Source: an uncultured Acidimicrobiales bacterium (GTDB lineage Bacteria; Actinomycetota; Acidimicrobiia; Acidimicrobiales; SHLQ01). Taken from it: 64,000 bases of DNA. The stretch is from positions 1-64,000 of the forward strand of contig CALLQB010000007.1 of the NCBI GenBank assembly GCA_938015295.1. Reading direction: 5' to 3'. This document shows positions 37,936 through 45,824 of this stretch, piece after piece. How positions within the stretch are numbered: the stretch's first letter is position 1; each line of letters begins with the position of its first letter. The notes below the pieces were generated by a model that made no database searches, was not told where the DNA came from, and saw only the letters and a program-made list of their open reading frames with translations. A program made the position numbers and the translations under genes.

Positions 37936-39252
37936 TCACCGACCCGACGCCGTCGTGAGATATTCGTAATGACCCGGGTCGGGCACCAGCCACTCGCCTC
38001 CCCAGCCGAAGCCGTACTCCATCATCACCGCCGAAAGCCTGGGATCCTTCGACGAAAAGTTTCCGCGGGGATTCGAGCCAATGTTGAGGTCGACGGCAAT
38101 CCCCCAGGCGTGCCGAGAGAGAGGCAATCCGGCACCAATACGGCGCGGAGCATGACACCCAGCGAATTGCGACGGTTCGATCAAATGTGTCAGTAGATCA
38201 GCCTCGAGCCGGGCCATCACCTCACCGATCAGGGGCGCCACCAAGCGGTGACAACGAATCGGCCCGAGAATCGGCACCTCCATCTCGACAATGTTCTCGG
38301 CGCTCCACTCCTCGTCAATCTCGATATCTCGACCTGAGAGTGGCCGGTAGCTGAACTCGCCGAAGAGCCGCTTCACTTGGGCCTGGGTTAACACGGCATC
38401 ACCGTGGCGAAGGTACGGGCTTTCGCCAGCGACACGGACCCGAAGAGGCGCAGGAACTCGTTGCGCCATTTCGAGCGCTTCGCGGAGGGCTTGGTCGATT
38501 ACCGTTCGATCGACCACCGCCTTCCCGAGCAGAAACCGGTCGACGGTAAGGCCGAGCGATTCACTCCCGCCTCGGCTAACCACAAGCTCGCTCCCCGCCC
38601 CACTTAGGTCGGTGACAATGCCGTCAATCGTTATCGTCGAGCCGTCGACGGTTGTCAGTTGGCCGCCTTTGCTGAGACCCCGAATCTCGGCCGCAGTTGC
38701 CGTAAGAATCCCCGAACCGGGGCCCAAGTCACGAATCAGCTCGCGATCGGCAGGGTCGACGAACAACCCGTAGGTGCTGGGGTCGACCGCAATCGTGTCG
38801 AGAGAAATTCGCCAGCCCTGGTCTAGGTCGAGAACGGTTGTACCGTCACTCGACCGAGCGTGCACGATTTCGAGGTCTGCGCCCGCAACCACCGAGATGT
38901 CTGCTAACGATCCGTTCTTGGCAACCTCCCGAGCGAAGCCCGCAGGAAGGCCGCCCGCTGTCCAGGCAAGCACCGTCACCGGACCATCCGGTACGGCGCT
39001 CGGTGCTGCCGTTGTGGTGCTGGGCACCGGTACCGGCGGCTGCGAGGTAGATGGCACAGCACTACTGGCCGACGGCGACTCTGCGGTTTCTGGCTGTGTG
39101 CGAATTTCTCCGTCGCCGACCAGCGGGGAAACCGCGGCGTCCTCATCCGAGAGCATTGCGCTGACCGCCGACGTCGCGACAAATCCGACGACCAGCCCGG
39201 CTGCAGCGCCGACGAGAAGCAGCAATGGGAACCAAACCCGACGACCGCTCAT
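37936..39252 (-). CDS. Membrane-anchored peptidase M15 (D-Ala-D-Ala carboxypeptidase-like) with large ectodomain
   Basis: A 438-residue protein starting at ATG 39252, whose first bases overlap the stop of the anti-sigma gene (ATGA). A membrane helix (about 6-32) is followed by a Ser/Pro/Thr stalk, an all-beta region of unknown type (about 85-290) and a C-terminal VanY/M15-like domain with LSRHAWGIAVDLN (zinc ligands in SxHxxGxAxD) and DPGHYEYL (third zinc His). This points to peptidoglycan peptide trimming outside the membrane. It is the last gene of the beta-propeller / sigma / anti-sigma operon, so it is probably an effector or sensor of that envelope response. Confidence 0.8.
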   Translation of the reverse strand: MSGRRVWFPLLLLVGAAAGLVVGFVATSAVSAMLSDEDAAVSPLVGDGEIRTQPETAESPSASSAVPSTSQPPVPVPSTTTAAPSAVPDGPVTVLAWTAGGLPAGFAREVAKNGSLADISVVAGADLEIVHARSSDGTTVLDLDQGWRISLDTIAVDPSTYGLFVDPADRELIRDLGPGSGILTATAAEIRGLSKGGQLTTVDGSTITIDGIVTDLSGAGSELVVSRGGSESLGLTVDRFLLGKAVVDRTVIDQALREALEMAQRVPAPLRVRVAGESPYLRHGDAVLTQAQVKRLFGEFSYRPLSGRDIEIDEEWSAENIVEMEVPILGPIRCHRLVAPLIGEVMARLEADLLTHLIEPSQFAGCHAPRRIGAGLPLSRHAWGIAVDLNIGSNPRGNFSSKDPRLSAVMMEYGFGWGGEWLVPDPGHYEYLTTASGR

Positions 39253-41069
39253 TTGAGCCGTTCCGCTATGTCCCGAAGCTGTTCGAGCGGAAGACCCTCG
39301 CCCGCAAGTTCGACAACAACGCCGTTCTCGACCCACTCGATTGCGTTGCGAGTAGGCGAGAACCTTCCGGTTACCCCACGCACGACGAGTGCCTCGACAT
39401 CGGGCGAACGAGGCGGCGCGAGCACGGTGCCCGGCCGCTGCACGATGCGGTAGCCAGCGGCACCCGAGCTAGCCACGATGATCGTCGAGGTGAGCCCATC
39501 GACCCGTGCAGCGGTATACGAAGCTGGCCGCAACGCCGACGCGGGCAACGTGTCGAGCGTCGCCGCCTGCAGCCAACTGCCGGGTAATCCGACACTCGGC
39601 ACCCCTAGCGACGCTGCAATATCAACCAACGCATCGACACCTACAGAGCCGGTGACCTCGATGTCGCGGTCGGCCCCATGGAGAGCCACCCGTGTTCCCA
39701 GCGGATCGACAAAAACCGTGCCGACATCGGTTTCGATAGGCGCGACCAGCGAGCCAAACGCGCCGAACAACCTGCTCGCTCGCCACTGGGTGGTCGACCT
39801 GATCACGACCCATGCCCGACCGTCGCTCCACGAATCGACAGCAACGTCTCCCACGCCGCCCTTGGTCGGCGAGTTAAGCGCCTGTGAGCCCGAGAGGTGC
39901 CTACGCATACCTTCAGGCAACCATGCAGGCGAAGGCTGCTCGGCGGCGCCGACGACAAACGCACCTACCCTGGTGACCTCGACTGGTGGCGAAGGATGCG
40001 CATCGACAGGCAACTCGGCCCGCGCTATCTCGACCGTCAACAGCAGAGCCCCGGGTGCGTCGCGATAGCCGCTCTGCGCAGCCCACCGCGAACGGGCAGG
40101 ATCATCGCTGGCGCGAACCTCGATACCCCGAAGCTCAAAACTGTCGGCATCGAGGTGCAACGTGGCGATGTCGCTGGGCGCATACTCTCGCCAGTCGCCG
40201 ATGGTGAACAACGCGTCGAACACCGCCGTAAACCGGGCGACGGTTGCAACCACATCGATGATCTCGCCAGACCGTTTCACAGCGACACCCTCGGAAAGGT
40301 TGTCGAGCCCCGACACTGAGCCAACCGGCACGACAAGATCGAGCGCTCGGAGCTGTTCGTCAAATGGCGCCCGCCCGACGGTTCGATGTGAGATCCGTTG
40401 TTCGCTTAGGCATCCTGGCCGGAGGTCGACCGGGCACCGAAGTCGTCCGTCGCTCCAACTTTCGGTGCGATCGATGCCGAACGACACATCGTTGGGGATC
40501 CAAAGCGCAGCGCCTGTATCAGCTGCCGTGGAGGGGTACCTCGTGGTGTCCTCAAAGCTCAGACGCAACGTTTCGGGCGACCGGAACGAGAGCCAACCCG
40601 TGAAACTTCTCGCTGGTACCTCTCGGTGCCACCCGTATTCGGCCACCGTCACCCTGGCATCGAGCGAGTCGATCTGGCCTTGCGATGCACGCACCTCGTC
40701 GGCAAGTTCGGCCAACGCTGTGTGCTGCTCGCCCAGCGGCCATCCGGCCAACGCAGAACCAAGTAGTGCGAAGGCGGCGAAGACAGGAACAACGAGTCGC
40801 CAAACGGGCCTCCGCAACGGCGACCGAACAGGTGGTTGGTTCACTGCAGGTGCGCCGCTCGACTGCAGCCGGCGAGCTACTGCGCCGCTCACGTCTGGTG
40901 TTGCAGTTCTGCGGTCGAGTTCGACCAACTCCTCTAGACGCTCCATGCCAGCGACGAACACCTGCGCTTCGTCGACAAACTGCGTTGGCACCTCAGGAGA
41001 TGTCAGCTCGCCGTCGCGGGCGGCCGAGAGCTCCTCGAGTACTGCGTCGAGCCTCGAGCTTGTGTTCAC
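39249..41069 (-). CDS. Probable membrane anti-sigma factor with large ectodomain
   Basis: A 606-residue protein whose ATG overlaps the sigma gene stop (ATGA). The first 88 residues are cytoplasmic and helical, without the HxxxCxxC zinc motif of ZAS anti-sigma factors. A single membrane helix (about 90-110) is followed by an ectodomain of nearly 500 residues; the region from ALAELADEVRASQGQIDSLD onward, with strands such as GWLSFRSPETLRLSF, resembles LolA/RseB-type lipoprotein folds. By position (directly after an ECF sigma gene, same transcript) it is probably its anti-sigma factor. A cysteine pair (RLRCPVDLRPGCLS) could form a disulfide. Function rests on context, not on a recognised anti-sigma domain. 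Confidence 0.7.
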   Translation of the reverse strand: MNTSSRLDAVLEELSAARDGELTSPEVPTQFVDEAQVFVAGMERLEELVELDRRTATPDVSGAVARRLQSSGAPAVNQPPVRSPLRRPVWRLVVPVFAAFALLGSALAGWPLGEQHTALAELADEVRASQGQIDSLDARVTVAEYGWHREVPARSFTGWLSFRSPETLRLSFEDTTRYPSTAADTGAALWIPNDVSFGIDRTESWSDGRLRCPVDLRPGCLSEQRISHRTVGRAPFDEQLRALDLVVPVGSVSGLDNLSEGVAVKRSGEIIDVVATVARFTAVFDALFTIGDWREYAPSDIATLHLDADSFELRGIEVRASDDPARSRWAAQSGYRDAPGALLLTVEIARAELPVDAHPSPPVEVTRVGAFVVGAAEQPSPAWLPEGMRRHLSGSQALNSPTKGGVGDVAVDSWSDGRAWVVIRSTTQWRASRLFGAFGSLVAPIETDVGTVFVDPLGTRVALHGADRDIEVTGSVGVDALVDIAASLGVPSVGLPGSWLQAATLDTLPASALRPASYTAARVDGLTSTIIVASSGAAGYRIVQRPGTVLAPPRSPDVEALVVRGVTGRFSPTRNAIEWVENGVVVELAGEGLPLEQLRDIAERLK

Positions 41070-41662
41070 CGAAGCCCCCCTCTTCTTGGGATTTCGCGGG
41101 GCGACAGTTTCCCGGTGCCATCAGTGCTCCCGTCGAACCACGCCATAAGCTCACGACGGGCACGAAACATCCGCCCCTTCACCGTGCCTTCGGGAATCTC
41201 AAGGATTTCCGCAACATCGCGGTACTTGTACTGCAGCACCTCGACCAGAACGAAAACTTCGCGTAGCCCGTCGGGTAACTGCGCAAGCGCCTCGGCTAGC
41301 TCAAGCTGAGACTGCCCAATCGAATCGGCCGACTCCTCTGCCTGCGCAAGCCGCGTCGACTCGGACTGCAACCGCAGTGTCAGGCGTCGACGTCGACGCA
41401 ACCGACGCTGGGCGTCGATGCCTTGGTTGCGGGCAATGCGAAGAATCCAACCACTGAATGCCCCGTCGCCGCGAAACGATTCGAACCGTTGATGCGCCCG
41501 AATGAACGTCTCCTGCGTGAGGTCGGCTGCCAGCTCTGGATCTCGAACCTGATGCTTCAGCATGCGATAGACGTCGGCCTGGCAGTGCCGAACAAGGGCG
41601 TCAAAGGCTTGCGTGTCACCACGTTGCGCTTGTCGCACGAGTTCGGGATTCGGCTCGTCCAC
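41066..41662 (-). CDS. sigE: ECF-type RNA polymerase sigma factor
   Basis: A 198-residue group 4 sigma factor, SigE/RpoE-like; the symbol is by analogy. Region 2: ALVRHCQADVYRMLKHQV, DLTQETFIRAHQRFESF, GWILRIARNQGIDAQRR. Region 4: LAQLPDGLREVFVLVEVLQ, YRDVAEILEIPEGTVKGRMF (HTH). A very basic patch (RRRRRL) links the two. Followed by a coupled membrane anti-sigma gene and preceded 27 nt earlier by a membrane beta-propeller gene. It should drive an envelope or surface stress regulon; no target promoter was identified with confidence. Confidence 0.92.
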   Translation of the reverse strand: MDEPNPELVRQAQRGDTQAFDALVRHCQADVYRMLKHQVRDPELAADLTQETFIRAHQRFESFRGDGAFSGWILRIARNQGIDAQRRLRRRRRLTLRLQSESTRLAQAEESADSIGQSQLELAEALAQLPDGLREVFVLVEVLQYKYRDVAEILEIPEGTVKGRMFRARRELMAWFDGSTDGTGKLSPREIPRRGGLR

Positions 41663-41689
41663 TCGGGGGTCGACCTGCCCTTCAACTCG

Positions 41690-43111
41690 CTACCCCTTGC
41701 CCACCGATAGTGACACGGCACTTCCGCTGGCGCCGACAAATCGTACGCCTTGGTCGGGGGATCCGGCCTCAGGCACTGCCATCCGTGAGACTACGCGATC
41801 GAGGTCGGTGTCGAAGATGACGATTTCTTCGGCCACGGCCACGCGGATTTCAGACCCGGTGACGCTCGCATCGATGTCGGTAATCGCACCGCCGTCAACC
41901 CACCAGACCTTGCTCGGGGCGGTGAGCGACGGACCGAACGCCAGCAGATCGAAGGCCGATGCGGTGTAGAGAAGTCCATCCGGGCCGACAGCCGATACCG
42001 CCTTGTTTCGCCCCTCGTTTTCGTCGTCGGTGGGAAACAACCGGGGCGACGCCACGGTGTCACGCACCGAGAACGTGTCGGTATCGACCACCACGATGGT
42101 CGAAGTTGCACGATCGACCACAAAGATTGTGCGGCCGTCGGGACTCACCGCCATGCTCAGTTCGAGCGTGTCTGTCTGGTCGAGGCCGATTGGCAATGGT
42201 AAAAAGATGCAGAAGGACCAGTCTTCGCGCAGGCTCAGCACATGGATAAATGCCCGACGCTCGGGGTTGTCGGCGTCGGCTGGGTCGCGGAGCGGCTCGT
42301 CGCCAGCATCGAGCGTGTACAAGGTGTAGAGGAAGTCGAACTCTGGGCTAAAGGTTTGTGTCCGGGCCTTGCCCCTCATCTCGGGCGCCAGTTCGACATT
42401 GGGGCTGTAAACCGTTGCGATTTCCCCCGTCGCAAGATCGAGCTGCCGGACAAAATAGTGGTCGGGGTTTTCAGCAGGCACGAACTCGAGCAGATACAAC
42501 ACGTCAGCCTCGACCGAAAAGGTTTCGGGCTCGAAATTTCCCTCCAAGTCGAACGATTTCGCCGGCTCGCCGTTCGCGAACAACACATCGATGGCGGTTC
42601 GCTCTCGAGGCTCGACCTGAAAGAGGGTGCCGTCGCCATACTCTGACGGTTGTGAAGCGACGGGAAGCAGCGCTACTGCGTCGCCGAACGGTGACACGGT
42701 ACGGATTTCGCGGGGAAAGGGAAGCTCAACGGTCGATGTCGGCTCGCCAGACCGAATGTCGACGGTGCTGACTTCCGTGCCGCCATTGTCGTGCAGGCGA
42801 GACTGAAAGATCGTTGATCCGTCGGCCGAGACCACAGCGCCATCGAGGGTGTAGCTCACTGCCGAATCTGCGGAGTCGATCGCGGACAACGCGCCGGTTC
42901 CGTCAACCACGAGGTGTGGCTGGTCTTTCGAGCCTCCCATCGCGAACGCAAGAATCAGGCCCACAAGCACGATCGGAGTAGCGAACAGCAACACCAGCAC
43001 TGCTAGATCGCCGCGCCGCCGACTCGTTCTTCGCGGCGACGGCTCCTCGCTATGAGGCCCATCCGGCGAAGCATCGTGTTTGCTGGTTTGTGGACTGAGA
43101 AGAGCTGTCAT
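41690..43111 (-). CDS. Membrane-anchored extracytoplasmic beta-propeller-like protein
   Basis: A 473-residue protein. A basic, proline-rich cytoplasmic N terminus (about 36 residues) precedes one membrane helix (about 37-60). The ectodomain is made of repeated four-strand units, for example AVVSADGSTIFQSRL, AVSPDGRTIFVVDRATSTIVVVDTDTFSV and VSAVGPDGLLYTASAFDLL, as in YVTN/NHL/WD-like beta-propellers. No catalytic motif. First gene of an operon with the ECF sigma, anti-sigma and M15 peptidase, so it may be the ligand-sensing or scaffold part of the signalling complex. Confidence 0.75.
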   Translation of the reverse strand: MTALLSPQTSKHDASPDGPHSEEPSPRRTSRRRGDLAVLVLLFATPIVLVGLILAFAMGGSKDQPHLVVDGTGALSAIDSADSAVSYTLDGAVVSADGSTIFQSRLHDNGGTEVSTVDIRSGEPTSTVELPFPREIRTVSPFGDAVALLPVASQPSEYGDGTLFQVEPRERTAIDVLFANGEPAKSFDLEGNFEPETFSVEADVLYLLEFVPAENPDHYFVRQLDLATGEIATVYSPNVELAPEMRGKARTQTFSPEFDFLYTLYTLDAGDEPLRDPADADNPERRAFIHVLSLREDWSFCIFLPLPIGLDQTDTLELSMAVSPDGRTIFVVDRATSTIVVVDTDTFSVRDTVASPRLFPTDDENEGRNKAVSAVGPDGLLYTASAFDLLAFGPSLTAPSKVWWVDGGAITDIDASVTGSEIRVAVAEEIVIFDTDLDRVVSRMAVPEAGSPDQGVRFVGASGSAVSLSVGKG

Positions 43112-43236: not shown

Positions 43237-44442
43237 TTAGCCGAGATGCGGGGTGATGATTTCTACCAGCAGTGCTTGTTGGGCAGCGGTCATCGGGCCG
43301 GCGGAATCATGGTGGATGTGATCGCCGGTGAGGTACGCCGCAAACCCTTCAGCAAAGTCGCCTTGGCCAGCCTCAAAATCTGAGACACCGTTGCCAACCC
43401 ACCATTGGGTGTCGATGCCTCGGGAATCCATCCATTCGAGCCGCTCGCTGTCGTCGAGGTAGGTCAGGTCGAACGCGTGGCCAAGCTCGTGGGCGACAAT
43501 GCCAGCAAGTTCGCTCGGAGTGTCGTTGGCTTGCACATACACCTCAATGCGTTGCTCATCGGCAAACGTCAGGCCCCGGTAGCCGTCGATCGCGCTGTAA
43601 AACTCGACCGACCAACCAGGAAACACCGTCTCGAGGTCGAGACCCACCAGATCGAGCGCCTGCTGCCCAAGCACCTGTTCGGCCGAGATCGTTGTGAAGT
43701 CTGCAACCGCAGCGGCCTCCGCCGTCGCAATAGTCGAAGCGAGCAGGAGCGGGGCCGAGGCCTGCACGTCAACGTTGTCGACAACAAGAGTCGCAGGAGC
43801 TGCGGCGCCCGCACCACCACCGGCGGCCCGATCATCGTCGGGTTCGGGGTCGGCTTGCGAGGCAAACACCAACGCACCAACGGTGACCGCACCTACCAGA
43901 ATGCCCGCCCCCGGGATCCACAGCTTCTTCTTGAGCTTCGCGAGCAGCGAGGAGAGCTCGGGGTCGTTCGCAGCCATGGCCGCGAGCAGTTGCTCTTCGA
44001 TCAGCTCGGAGCGCTCCAGCAGCGACGCTTCAAGAATCGCGAGATCGTGGCTACGGAGCGGGATTTCGGTGCCGGGTTCGACGTTGCGCAACATGTAAAC
44101 AAGCGACAAATAGCGGTCGAGAACATGGTGATAGTCGACTCTTGACAGGTTCTCCTTGGTTTCGCCGACCCGCAAATACTTCGAGCTGATGTCGAGACAA
44201 AGCTTGGCTCGATGCGGCACAACCTGGCGACAATCGACACCGTACAGCTGGCTAATCAGTGGCAACAGATCGTCGCGAACTGCATCTCGACCGGTCTCAA
44301 AGGCCGACAGTTCGCCTTCGGTGAAATGTCCGGCCGATCGGTGGGCCAACACTGCGAGGTCGAGTCCCCGTGATGCCCGGGCTTCGGCAAGAAGTGGGCC
44401 AAAGCGATGGGCAGGGATGAGGTCGGAGACCGCCGATGTCAT
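43237..44442 (-). CDS. HTH - single helix - extracellular HExxH metallopeptidase fusion, copy A
   Basis: A 401-residue protein. Residues about 10-80 form an XRE-like HTH (RFGPLLAEARASRGLDLAVL, FTEGELSAFETGR); 80-170 are helical and charged; LKKKLW then begins one membrane helix (175-195). Outside, a low-complexity linker leads to a zinc peptidase-like domain with IVAHELGHAFDLTYLDD (HELGH 318-322) and a downstream GDFAEGFAAY whose Glu365 is a plausible third ligand. The neighbour at 44496-45824 is a paralogue, 53 nt upstream. Cytoplasmic parts are nearly identical in places, ectodomains diverged. This joins a DNA-binding-like domain to an outside peptidase in one chain; I know no named family with this role. 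Confidence 0.8.
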   Translation of the reverse strand: MTSAVSDLIPAHRFGPLLAEARASRGLDLAVLAHRSAGHFTEGELSAFETGRDAVRDDLLPLISQLYGVDCRQVVPHRAKLCLDISSKYLRVGETKENLSRVDYHHVLDRYLSLVYMLRNVEPGTEIPLRSHDLAILEASLLERSELIEEQLLAAMAANDPELSSLLAKLKKKLWIPGAGILVGAVTVGALVFASQADPEPDDDRAAGGGAGAAAPATLVVDNVDVQASAPLLLASTIATAEAAAVADFTTISAEQVLGQQALDLVGLDLETVFPGWSVEFYSAIDGYRGLTFADEQRIEVYVQANDTPSELAGIVAHELGHAFDLTYLDDSERLEWMDSRGIDTQWWVGNGVSDFEAGQGDFAEGFAAYLTGDHIHHDSAGPMTAAQQALLVEIITPHLG

Positions 44443-44495
44443 AGAGGAAGAATCGGCTGCTCAGCCGGGCCGCTGTAGCGATTTTGATGCACGTT

Positions 44496-45824
44496 CTAAC
44501 CCGGTTGGATGCGGTCTTCGAGAAGGCGCATCAGTACCTCGTGCTGCCCTACGGTGACCGGCCCGTGCGACCCCGGGTGCATGTCATCGCCGGCAACAAC
44601 CAGGGCAAACGCTTCAGCAAAATCGCCTTGGCCTGCAGCGAAATCAGAAAGGCTCTCACCGACCCACCACGAGTCGAGGCCTCTCGCCTCCATCCACAAC
44701 CATCGGTCGGCATCCTCAAGGTACGTGAGGTCATAGGCGTGGCCCAGCTCGTGCGCCACAACGCTGGCCAGCAGCGCCGGGGTGTCGCCGGGCCGCACAA
44801 AGATCTCGATCACCTTGCGTTCGGTGAACGCGAGGCCCCGAAATCCTTCACGTGGGCCTTTGAACTCGATCGTCCACTCCGGAAGCGTTGCCCCGACATC
44901 GAGCTTGATTCGCTGCATTGTCTCGGCGACCAGCGCAGCATCGGCGGGGTTCTCGACAATCGGAACGAAGGTCGGCGACTCGTCGCGTACCTCGGTTGCC
45001 CGAGCAACTTCGGTCCGCTGGTCGGCGGGCAAAACCGTCTCCGGCAACGTAAAACCGGTTGTCGAAGCAACGCTGCTTACCACGGTGCTGTCGGGGAAGG
45101 CAGGCGATGCGCCGGCTCGTTCAATCGTGACGTTCGACGGCAAGACGAATCCTGGCGCTTGCTCGACAACGAGCGACGTTGGTGTGCCGTCGGCACCAAG
45201 CGAGGAACGGCGGTCGGTGTCTGGGTCATCAGACGAAGAAGCAAACACAAGCGCACCGAGCCCGACCGCCCCAACAAACAGGCCGGCTCCAGGAACCCAC
45301 AACTTTTTCTTGAGCCGCTCGAGAAGCGACACAAGCTCGGGGTCGTTGGCCGCCATCGCCGCAAGGAGTTGCTCTTCGATCAGCTCTGATCGTTCAAGCA
45401 ACGATGCTTCGAGAATTGCTAAATCGTCGCCGCGAAGCGGAATCTGGGCGCTACCAGGCTCAATGCCGCGGACGAGATACAGCAGCGACAGATACCGGTC
45501 GAGGATCGCCTGATGTTGCACGCTCTCAAGCTGTGTTTCGTGCCCCGCGACACGCAAATAACGAGCGCCAACGTCGAGGCAGAGTTTTGCCCGATGGGGC
45601 ACCACTTCGGCGCACGGCACTCGATACAACTTGCTGAGCAGTGGCAACACATCTTCGCGGACCACCGTGTTGCCGGTCTCGATCATCGCTAGTTCGGCTG
45701 CGGTGAAGATCCCGCCCGACTGCACGGCGATGGCATCGAGATCCATCCCGTGTGCCAGACGCGTTTCAGCGAGCAATGCACCAAAGCGATGCGCTGGGAT
45801 GAGATCGGCCACAGGTGCGGTCAC
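44496..45824 (-). CDS. HTH - single helix - extracellular HExxH metallopeptidase fusion, copy B
   Basis: A 442-residue paralogue of the next gene. Same order: HTH (about 10-80, RFGALLAETRLAHGMDLDAI), helical segment containing AILEASLLERSELIEEQLLA identical to copy A, membrane helix (176-196), then a longer and different Ser/Thr/Pro-rich stalk (200-290) and the metallopeptidase-like domain with VVAHELGHAYDLTYLED (HELGH 358-362) and GDFAEAFALVVAG (Glu404). The invariant VVPHRAKLCLD in both suggests a functional cytoplasmic site. Transcribed first of the pair after an intrinsic terminator, so probably from its own promoter. Confidence 0.8.
   Translation of the reverse strand: MTAPVADLIPAHRFGALLAETRLAHGMDLDAIAVQSGGIFTAAELAMIETGNTVVREDVLPLLSKLYRVPCAEVVPHRAKLCLDVGARYLRVAGHETQLESVQHQAILDRYLSLLYLVRGIEPGSAQIPLRGDDLAILEASLLERSELIEEQLLAAMAANDPELVSLLERLKKKLWVPGAGLFVGAVGLGALVFASSSDDPDTDRRSSLGADGTPTSLVVEQAPGFVLPSNVTIERAGASPAFPDSTVVSSVASTTGFTLPETVLPADQRTEVARATEVRDESPTFVPIVENPADAALVAETMQRIKLDVGATLPEWTIEFKGPREGFRGLAFTERKVIEIFVRPGDTPALLASVVAHELGHAYDLTYLEDADRWLWMEARGLDSWWVGESLSDFAAGQGDFAEAFALVVAGDDMHPGSHGPVTVGQHEVLMRLLEDRIQPG

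Follow-up and report, generated by a model that had tools for sequence, protein, structure and literature searches.

What is a helix-turn-helix (HTH) domain doing inside the cell when it shares a polypeptide with a metallopeptidase predicted to lie outside? Two neighbouring genes raise this question. They lie in a 64,000-nucleotide stretch of DNA (here called the window) that belongs to the 5.0-Mb draft genome of an uncultured Acidimicrobiales bacterium. Our main finding is that the cytoplasmic part of both proteins, the head, is a diverged form of BldD, the c-di-GMP-dimerised developmental repressor of actinomycetes and a developmental regulator of Streptomyces. The anatomy of the proteins and the ancestry of the head are well supported, and we hold them with high confidence; what the head now does is a more tentative matter.

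Architecture of the gene pair

The features of the pair are as follows.

43237–44442, minus strand: P0001, ORF of 401 aa with an ATG start; BldD-like head, transmembrane (TM) helix, gluzincin
44233..44412, minus strand: HTH of P0001, residues 11–70; Pfam HTH_31 E 7e-5, sub-threshold; charge −2
43969..44217, minus strand: region of P0001 like the BldD C-terminal domain (CTD), residues 76–158; CTD-only hhalign E 7.5e-10, and motif table
43954..44046, minus strand: block of 31 residues that do not differ between the paralogues (P0001 residues 133–163), within the helical neck below the membrane
43861..43917, minus strand: TM helix of P0001, residues 176–194; hydropathy 2.08, preceded by KLKKK and followed by DPEPDDD
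43249..43686, minus strand: predicted extracytoplasmic gluzincin domain of P0001, residues 253–398; A4 (peptidase) profile, AF2 and Foldseek
43477..43491, minus strand: HELGH of P0001, residues 318–322; invariant in alignments
43348–43350, minus strand: putative third ligand of P0001, E365 in DFAE; alignment
44496–45824, minus strand: P0002, ORF of 442 aa with a GTG start; tandem paralogue of the same architecture
45606..45794, minus strand: HTH of P0002, residues 11–73; HTH_31 E 8.6e-6 and NCBIfam TransRegBldD E 9.3e-5, both sub-threshold
45348..45599, minus strand: BldD CTD-like region of P0002, residues 76–159; motif RGI-x9-RGDD
45240..45296, minus strand: TM helix of P0002, residues 177–195; hydropathy 1.97
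44514..44954, minus strand: predicted extracytoplasmic gluzincin domain of P0002, residues 291–437; A4 profile E 2.2e-56
44739..44753, minus strand: HELGH of P0002, residues 358–362; alignment
44613–44615, minus strand: putative third ligand of P0002, E404 in DFAE; alignment

According to the ORF calls, 53 bp separate P0002 from P0001, both on the minus strand. The TM helix and the peptidase of each protein are joined by a spacer of low complexity, roughly 40–160 residues long. Within the genus, P0001 has full-length orthologues that are 61–66% identical, while orthologues of P0002 are present in two genomes (G002 and G003) and missing from a third (G001).

The initial annotation had pointed to identical stretches in the cytoplasmic parts and to more diverged ectodomains. 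Both statements hold, and the former proves stronger than stated, since the identity forms one uninterrupted run of 31 residues. Between the paralogues, the segment 131–175 is 89% identical, the HTH 56% and the peptidase 46%; this segment covers the neck, which the model of P0001 builds from helices at 131–141, 145–158 and 161–173. At residues that are identical in the two proteins, third codon positions agree in only about 40–60% of cases. The identical stretch is therefore attributed to purifying selection, and recent gene conversion is ruled out as its source.

A head derived from BldD

The HTH had been described as XRE-like. An HTH is indeed present, but it is not a generic XRE domain, nor one of the RodZ or ImmA kind: the cytoplasmic part as a whole corresponds to BldD, with HTH and CTD in the same order. 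When the profile of the heads (A3) was aligned to a profile of canonical BldD of the class, hhalign gave a probability of 98.9 (E 1.8e-17, 147 columns). The CTD alone scored 96.5 against the BldD CTD, versus at most 0.5 for five column-shuffled controls. A profile search of PDB sequences with the head ranked the DNA-binding domain of BldD first and matched CTD-only BldD chains separately; for the HTH of P0001, both this search and Foldseek gave the BldD DNA-binding domain (2EWT/4OB4) as top matches. The AF2 model of the head (mean pLDDT 86) retrieved this domain at Foldseek ranks 1, 2 and 4. The BldD CTD was absent from the top 50 fold matches of the model, so that the CTD assignment rests on sequence profiles.

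Pfam BldD-like_C (PF21179) also supports the CTD assignment: it matched 16 of the 47 rows, of which only 9 are canonical, though not P0001 or P0002 at E ≤ 1. The NCBIfam equivalog for BldD (NF050110) has a cut-off of 250 bits; P0001 and P0002 score 17.8 and 22.2 bits, and a canonical BldD of Acidimicrobiia does not reach it either, at 145.6 bits. Searching the host genome with canonical BldD returned the true BldD (C25, 63% identical to class BldD, with the motif RQD-x8-RRDD), followed by exactly three membrane proteins. In a tree of heads, all membrane-type rows stand apart from canonical BldD with full support. Unlike BldD, P0001 and P0002 are membrane-anchored, carry a peptidase and have a neck added after the CTD.

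Other BldD-like proteins were seen in the course of this survey. The host genome encodes a soluble paralogue that has no c-di-GMP motif (G000:C35, at L201:776-1339, minus strand). Six proteins of family f58 (L106–L110 and L113) constitute another kind of BldD fusion within the class: soluble BldD-like N-modules are followed by long Pro-rich linkers and a conserved, seemingly beta-rich C-terminal domain. In one further protein (L103, genome G078), a BldD-like head and TM helix precede long GDQDDT repeats as well as other segments that are repeated.

Loss of c-di-GMP and DNA-binding marks

BldD requires RxD-x8-RxxD to bind the c-di-GMP tetramer, and mutation of either motif abolished binding (PMC4151990). 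P0001 keeps three of the four motif residues at the same spacing: R119, R130 and D133, which correspond to R114, R125 and D128 of BldD and have invariant equivalents in all 38 membrane-type heads, most of them with BldD spacing. The equivalent of Asp116 is found in 9/9 canonical BldDs versus 0/38 membrane-type heads (V121 stands there in P0001), and that of the phosphate-contacting Arg130 is likewise missing from all 38. P0002 moreover has one extra residue between the two motifs. With RxD-x8-RxxD lost, reading of c-di-GMP through the BldD signature was rejected. Because R119, R130 and D133 are invariant, a different ligand might occupy the old BldD site.

The HTH of membrane-type heads has a mean charge of −3.3 and its recognition-helix segment one of −1.8, versus +3.3 and +1 in canonical BldD, net charge being only a proxy for DNA binding. 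The basic residues of BldD's DNA face are lost, and Lys36 of FKASVLGAYERGER is replaced. On the other side, two divergent relatives devoid of a peptidase, L101 and L102, have basic HTHs (+9 and +7). For the membrane-type heads, the sequence proxies argue against binding of BldD boxes, and the view in the initial annotation that the HTH is a DNA-binding signalling output is not supported: the HTH is acidic, its basic face is gone, and an independent fusion without any HTH exists (see below). Regulation of genes by the head is thus unsupported, if still conceivable, and on sequence evidence the head has lost the known functions of BldD.

A predicted external, gluzincin-like peptidase without a Pfam family at cut-off

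The ectodomain of P0001 is modelled as a compact domain (pLDDT 95.2, pTM 0.90). Its best Foldseek matches are gluzincins, with IrrE at the top, then selecase, collagenase and lethal factor; the scores are weak (E 0.013 and up, TM-scores about 0.3–0.45). The arrangement may be that of clan MA(E), in which HExxH is complemented by a downstream Glu on a second helix; both helices are confidently predicted, but Foldseek E is only about 0.01. The metal-site motif with a plausible downstream Glu, as initially proposed, is borne out: HExxHxxD…D[FWY]AE is intact in 32/32 fused and 76/76 stand-alone homologues, the Glu being that of DFAE. The distance from HExxH to this Glu is mostly 43–46 residues, and 43 in P0001.

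Assignment to a family is another matter. In Pfam, no family matches the ectodomains of the window at cut-off, and matches among homologues are weak and scattered. Of the 63 homologues, Peptidase_M78 matches 4, at E 0.002 or weaker, and it does not match the P0001 domain at E ≤ 0.01. An HTH and a gluzincin in one system recall ImmA/IrrE, but M78 proteins are cytosolic, whereas here the membrane separates the two domains, and the third Glu of P0001 lies in DFAExF; membership in M78 was rejected for want of a family match, the similarity being one of fold only. M34-type gluzincins have the layout HExxHxxD…FAExF. The ectodomain shares this layout, at similar spacing, with PPEP-1/Zmp1 and relatives, but the Pfam families ATLF and M34 match none of the 63 peptidase homologues at E ≤ 0.01, sequence matches in the PDB are weak (E ~0.4–1.3), and the TM-score is low.

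A cytoplasmic HTH with an external peptidase had also been proposed, and this predicted orientation is in keeping with charges flanking the TM helix, which average +2.2 N-terminal to the helix and −2.2 C-terminal to it; in 26 of 31 fusions the positive flank is the inner one. Stand-alone homologues agree, as a hydrophobic signal- or TM-like segment lies ahead of the domain in 73 of 76. Both proteins are accordingly predicted to be single-pass, with a zinc peptidase outside the cell.

Distribution and history of the fusion

Profile searches for heads (A3) and peptidases (A4) identified 31 full fusions of head, TM helix and peptidase in about 26 genomes, distributed over several Acidimicrobiales families. 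As the order is the same throughout and the motif always intact, the fused architecture read in both ORFs by the initial annotation is not due to chance. Stand-alone peptidases were also numerous in these searches, as were head-TM proteins that have no peptidase. Among 296 genomes sampled from the phylum, both parts occur almost only in Acidimicrobiia. The peptidase is usually a stand-alone exported protein.

In a quick peptidase tree built on few columns, the 31 fusions that carry an HTH cluster together (SH-aLRT 92). Two further proteins combine a BldD-type CTD with the peptidase and have no HTH:

L130:3168-4268 and L133:3823-4839, plus strand: HTH-less fusions beside an S4-domain gene; profile matches

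These two are found among the stand-alone enzymes (starred 99), outside the group of 31, which leads us to infer from this tree that head and peptidase were joined at least twice. The cytoplasmic part of L133 matches the head profile more weakly than that of L130 (E 4e-7 versus 1e-11). Neither has a TM helix above the hydropathy cut-off; a moderately hydrophobic stretch is visible. An HTH hidden upstream in another frame was rejected, since the upstream ORF, as read from its translation, is of the S4 RNA-binding type.

Tandem pairs have separate origins in the genus of the window and in L155/L159; the tandem partner in L156 and L173 has no peptidase and ends right after the TM helix. Peptidase-less BldD-TM proteins (L008:6943-7617, L030, L050, L051, L052, L054 and L100) have in common a short motif in their extracytoplasmic tail, (V/A)(E/D)IGDA(V/A)(V/M)(I/L). 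In the host genome, the gene for such a protein has genes for DNA polymerase IV and Nudix proteins close by.

Gene neighbourhood

The pair had been tentatively assigned to the same envelope-sensing set as an adjacent operon for an ECF sigma factor and its anti-sigma factor. Adjacency in the window stands (genes at 41066–41662 and 39249–41069), but synteny and co-occurrence speak against a common set. In three genus-mates (G001–G003) the 37936–43111 block is absent beside the fusion gene, which is directly followed by other genes; moreover, G002 and G003 carry both fusions but no anti-sigma gene, and G006 and G023 carry the anti-sigma gene but no fusion. A functional link was therefore rejected. 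We note that 37936-43111 encodes, besides the ECF sigma factor and a large anti-sigma-like protein, a beta-propeller-like protein and an M15 D-Ala-D-Ala carboxypeptidase.

Elsewhere the neighbours differ from lineage to lineage. In genus g5 (L040–L047), the fusion gene directly follows those for an ABC ATPase and an FtsX/MacB-type permease, on the same strand in most genomes, and the neighbours at L049, L156, L173 and L183 are housekeeping genes, with AHCY at each of the four loci and FtsH at three of them. A common operon partner was rejected, and such lineage-specific neighbourhoods indicate no common pathway.

What the head may do

How could these observations fit together? We tentatively favour, at a little short of an even chance, a tethered envelope protease that is placed or gated by an oligomerisation or docking head derived from BldD. 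Such a head would no longer be a c-di-GMP-controlled transcription factor; it would have been recruited as a module for oligomerisation or partner docking, in the manner of RodZ's HTH, and would place or gate the protease from inside. The target would be a cell-envelope or surface protein, and P0001 and P0002 might form alternative or mixed oligomers through their shared neck. That the neck is under the strongest constraint between the paralogues, above both HTH and peptidase, counts in favour of such a scaffold; retention of the HTH fold in all 31 main fusions counts against it, as a pure scaffold does not strictly need it. Precedents by analogy for HTHs doing protein work are RodZ with MreB (PMC3599482) and SepH, an HTH-bearing actinobacterial regulator of FtsZ (PMC7968930). 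Among the papers searched, judging by titles and abstract openings, none of bearing here joins BldD with a metallopeptidase and a TM helix. RodZ shares a cytoplasmic XRE-type HTH, one TM helix and an extracytoplasmic part, but the HTH of P0001 and P0002 derives from BldD (HTH_31, not HTH_25) and their ectodomain is a peptidase, not DUF4115; as neither HTH_25 nor DUF4115 matches either protein in Pfam, membership in RodZ was rejected.

The retained HTH fold speaks for a one-component regulator working from outside to inside, like ToxR or CadC, in line with the initial annotation: the ectodomain would bind or cleave an envelope ligand, and the membrane-attached HTH would change transcription. 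BldD is a real transcription factor family, which fits as well, but the acidic HTH and recognition helix, an HTH that is dispensable in L130 and L133, a peptidase that also exists as a stand-alone exported enzyme and so is no dedicated sensor domain, and the rejected ECF link all weaken this sensor model, which we consider unlikely. Signalling might instead run outwards, the CTD still binding c-di-GMP or another nucleotide, dimerising the neck and thereby switching the protease. The conserved R114, R125 and D128 equivalents and the 34 GGDEF domains encoded by the host genome fit such gating, and LapD/LapG offers a parallel in logic, an external protease being coupled there to a cytoplasmic domain of the second-messenger type, but there is no homology, and P0001 and P0002 are one polypeptide each. 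The loss of Asp116, the guanine reader, and of Arg130, the sensitivity of BldD to mutation of either motif and the extra residue in P0002 make it quite improbable. Least credible to us is a head serving as mere membrane anchor, with no regulatory role, in place of the signal peptide or lipobox that stand-alone peptidases carry. These relatives do use simple N-terminal hydrophobic anchors or signals, but about 175 cytoplasmic residues have been kept across several families, with a neck more conserved than the enzyme, and fusion to a BldD-type CTD occurred at least twice.

Beyond the placing or gating head that we favour, it is conceivable, if rather doubtful, that the BldD-derived domain has become a transmembrane control head that regulates the extracellular protease from inside and perhaps senses, at the old BldD site, some ligand different from the c-di-GMP tetramer. 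If true, this would be a case of a bacterial transcription factor turned into a controller of a membrane protease. Taken at the level of sequence, a deep actinobacterial branch appears to have a membrane-anchored BldD lineage devoid of ligand and DNA determinants, which was joined at least twice to an uncharacterised external zinc protease. Within an order most of whose members are uncultured, the peptidases define a protease family that no Pfam model claims at cut-off, and the BldD-like heads would be a tractable example of how a transcription factor can be put to new use in the control of membranes or proteases.
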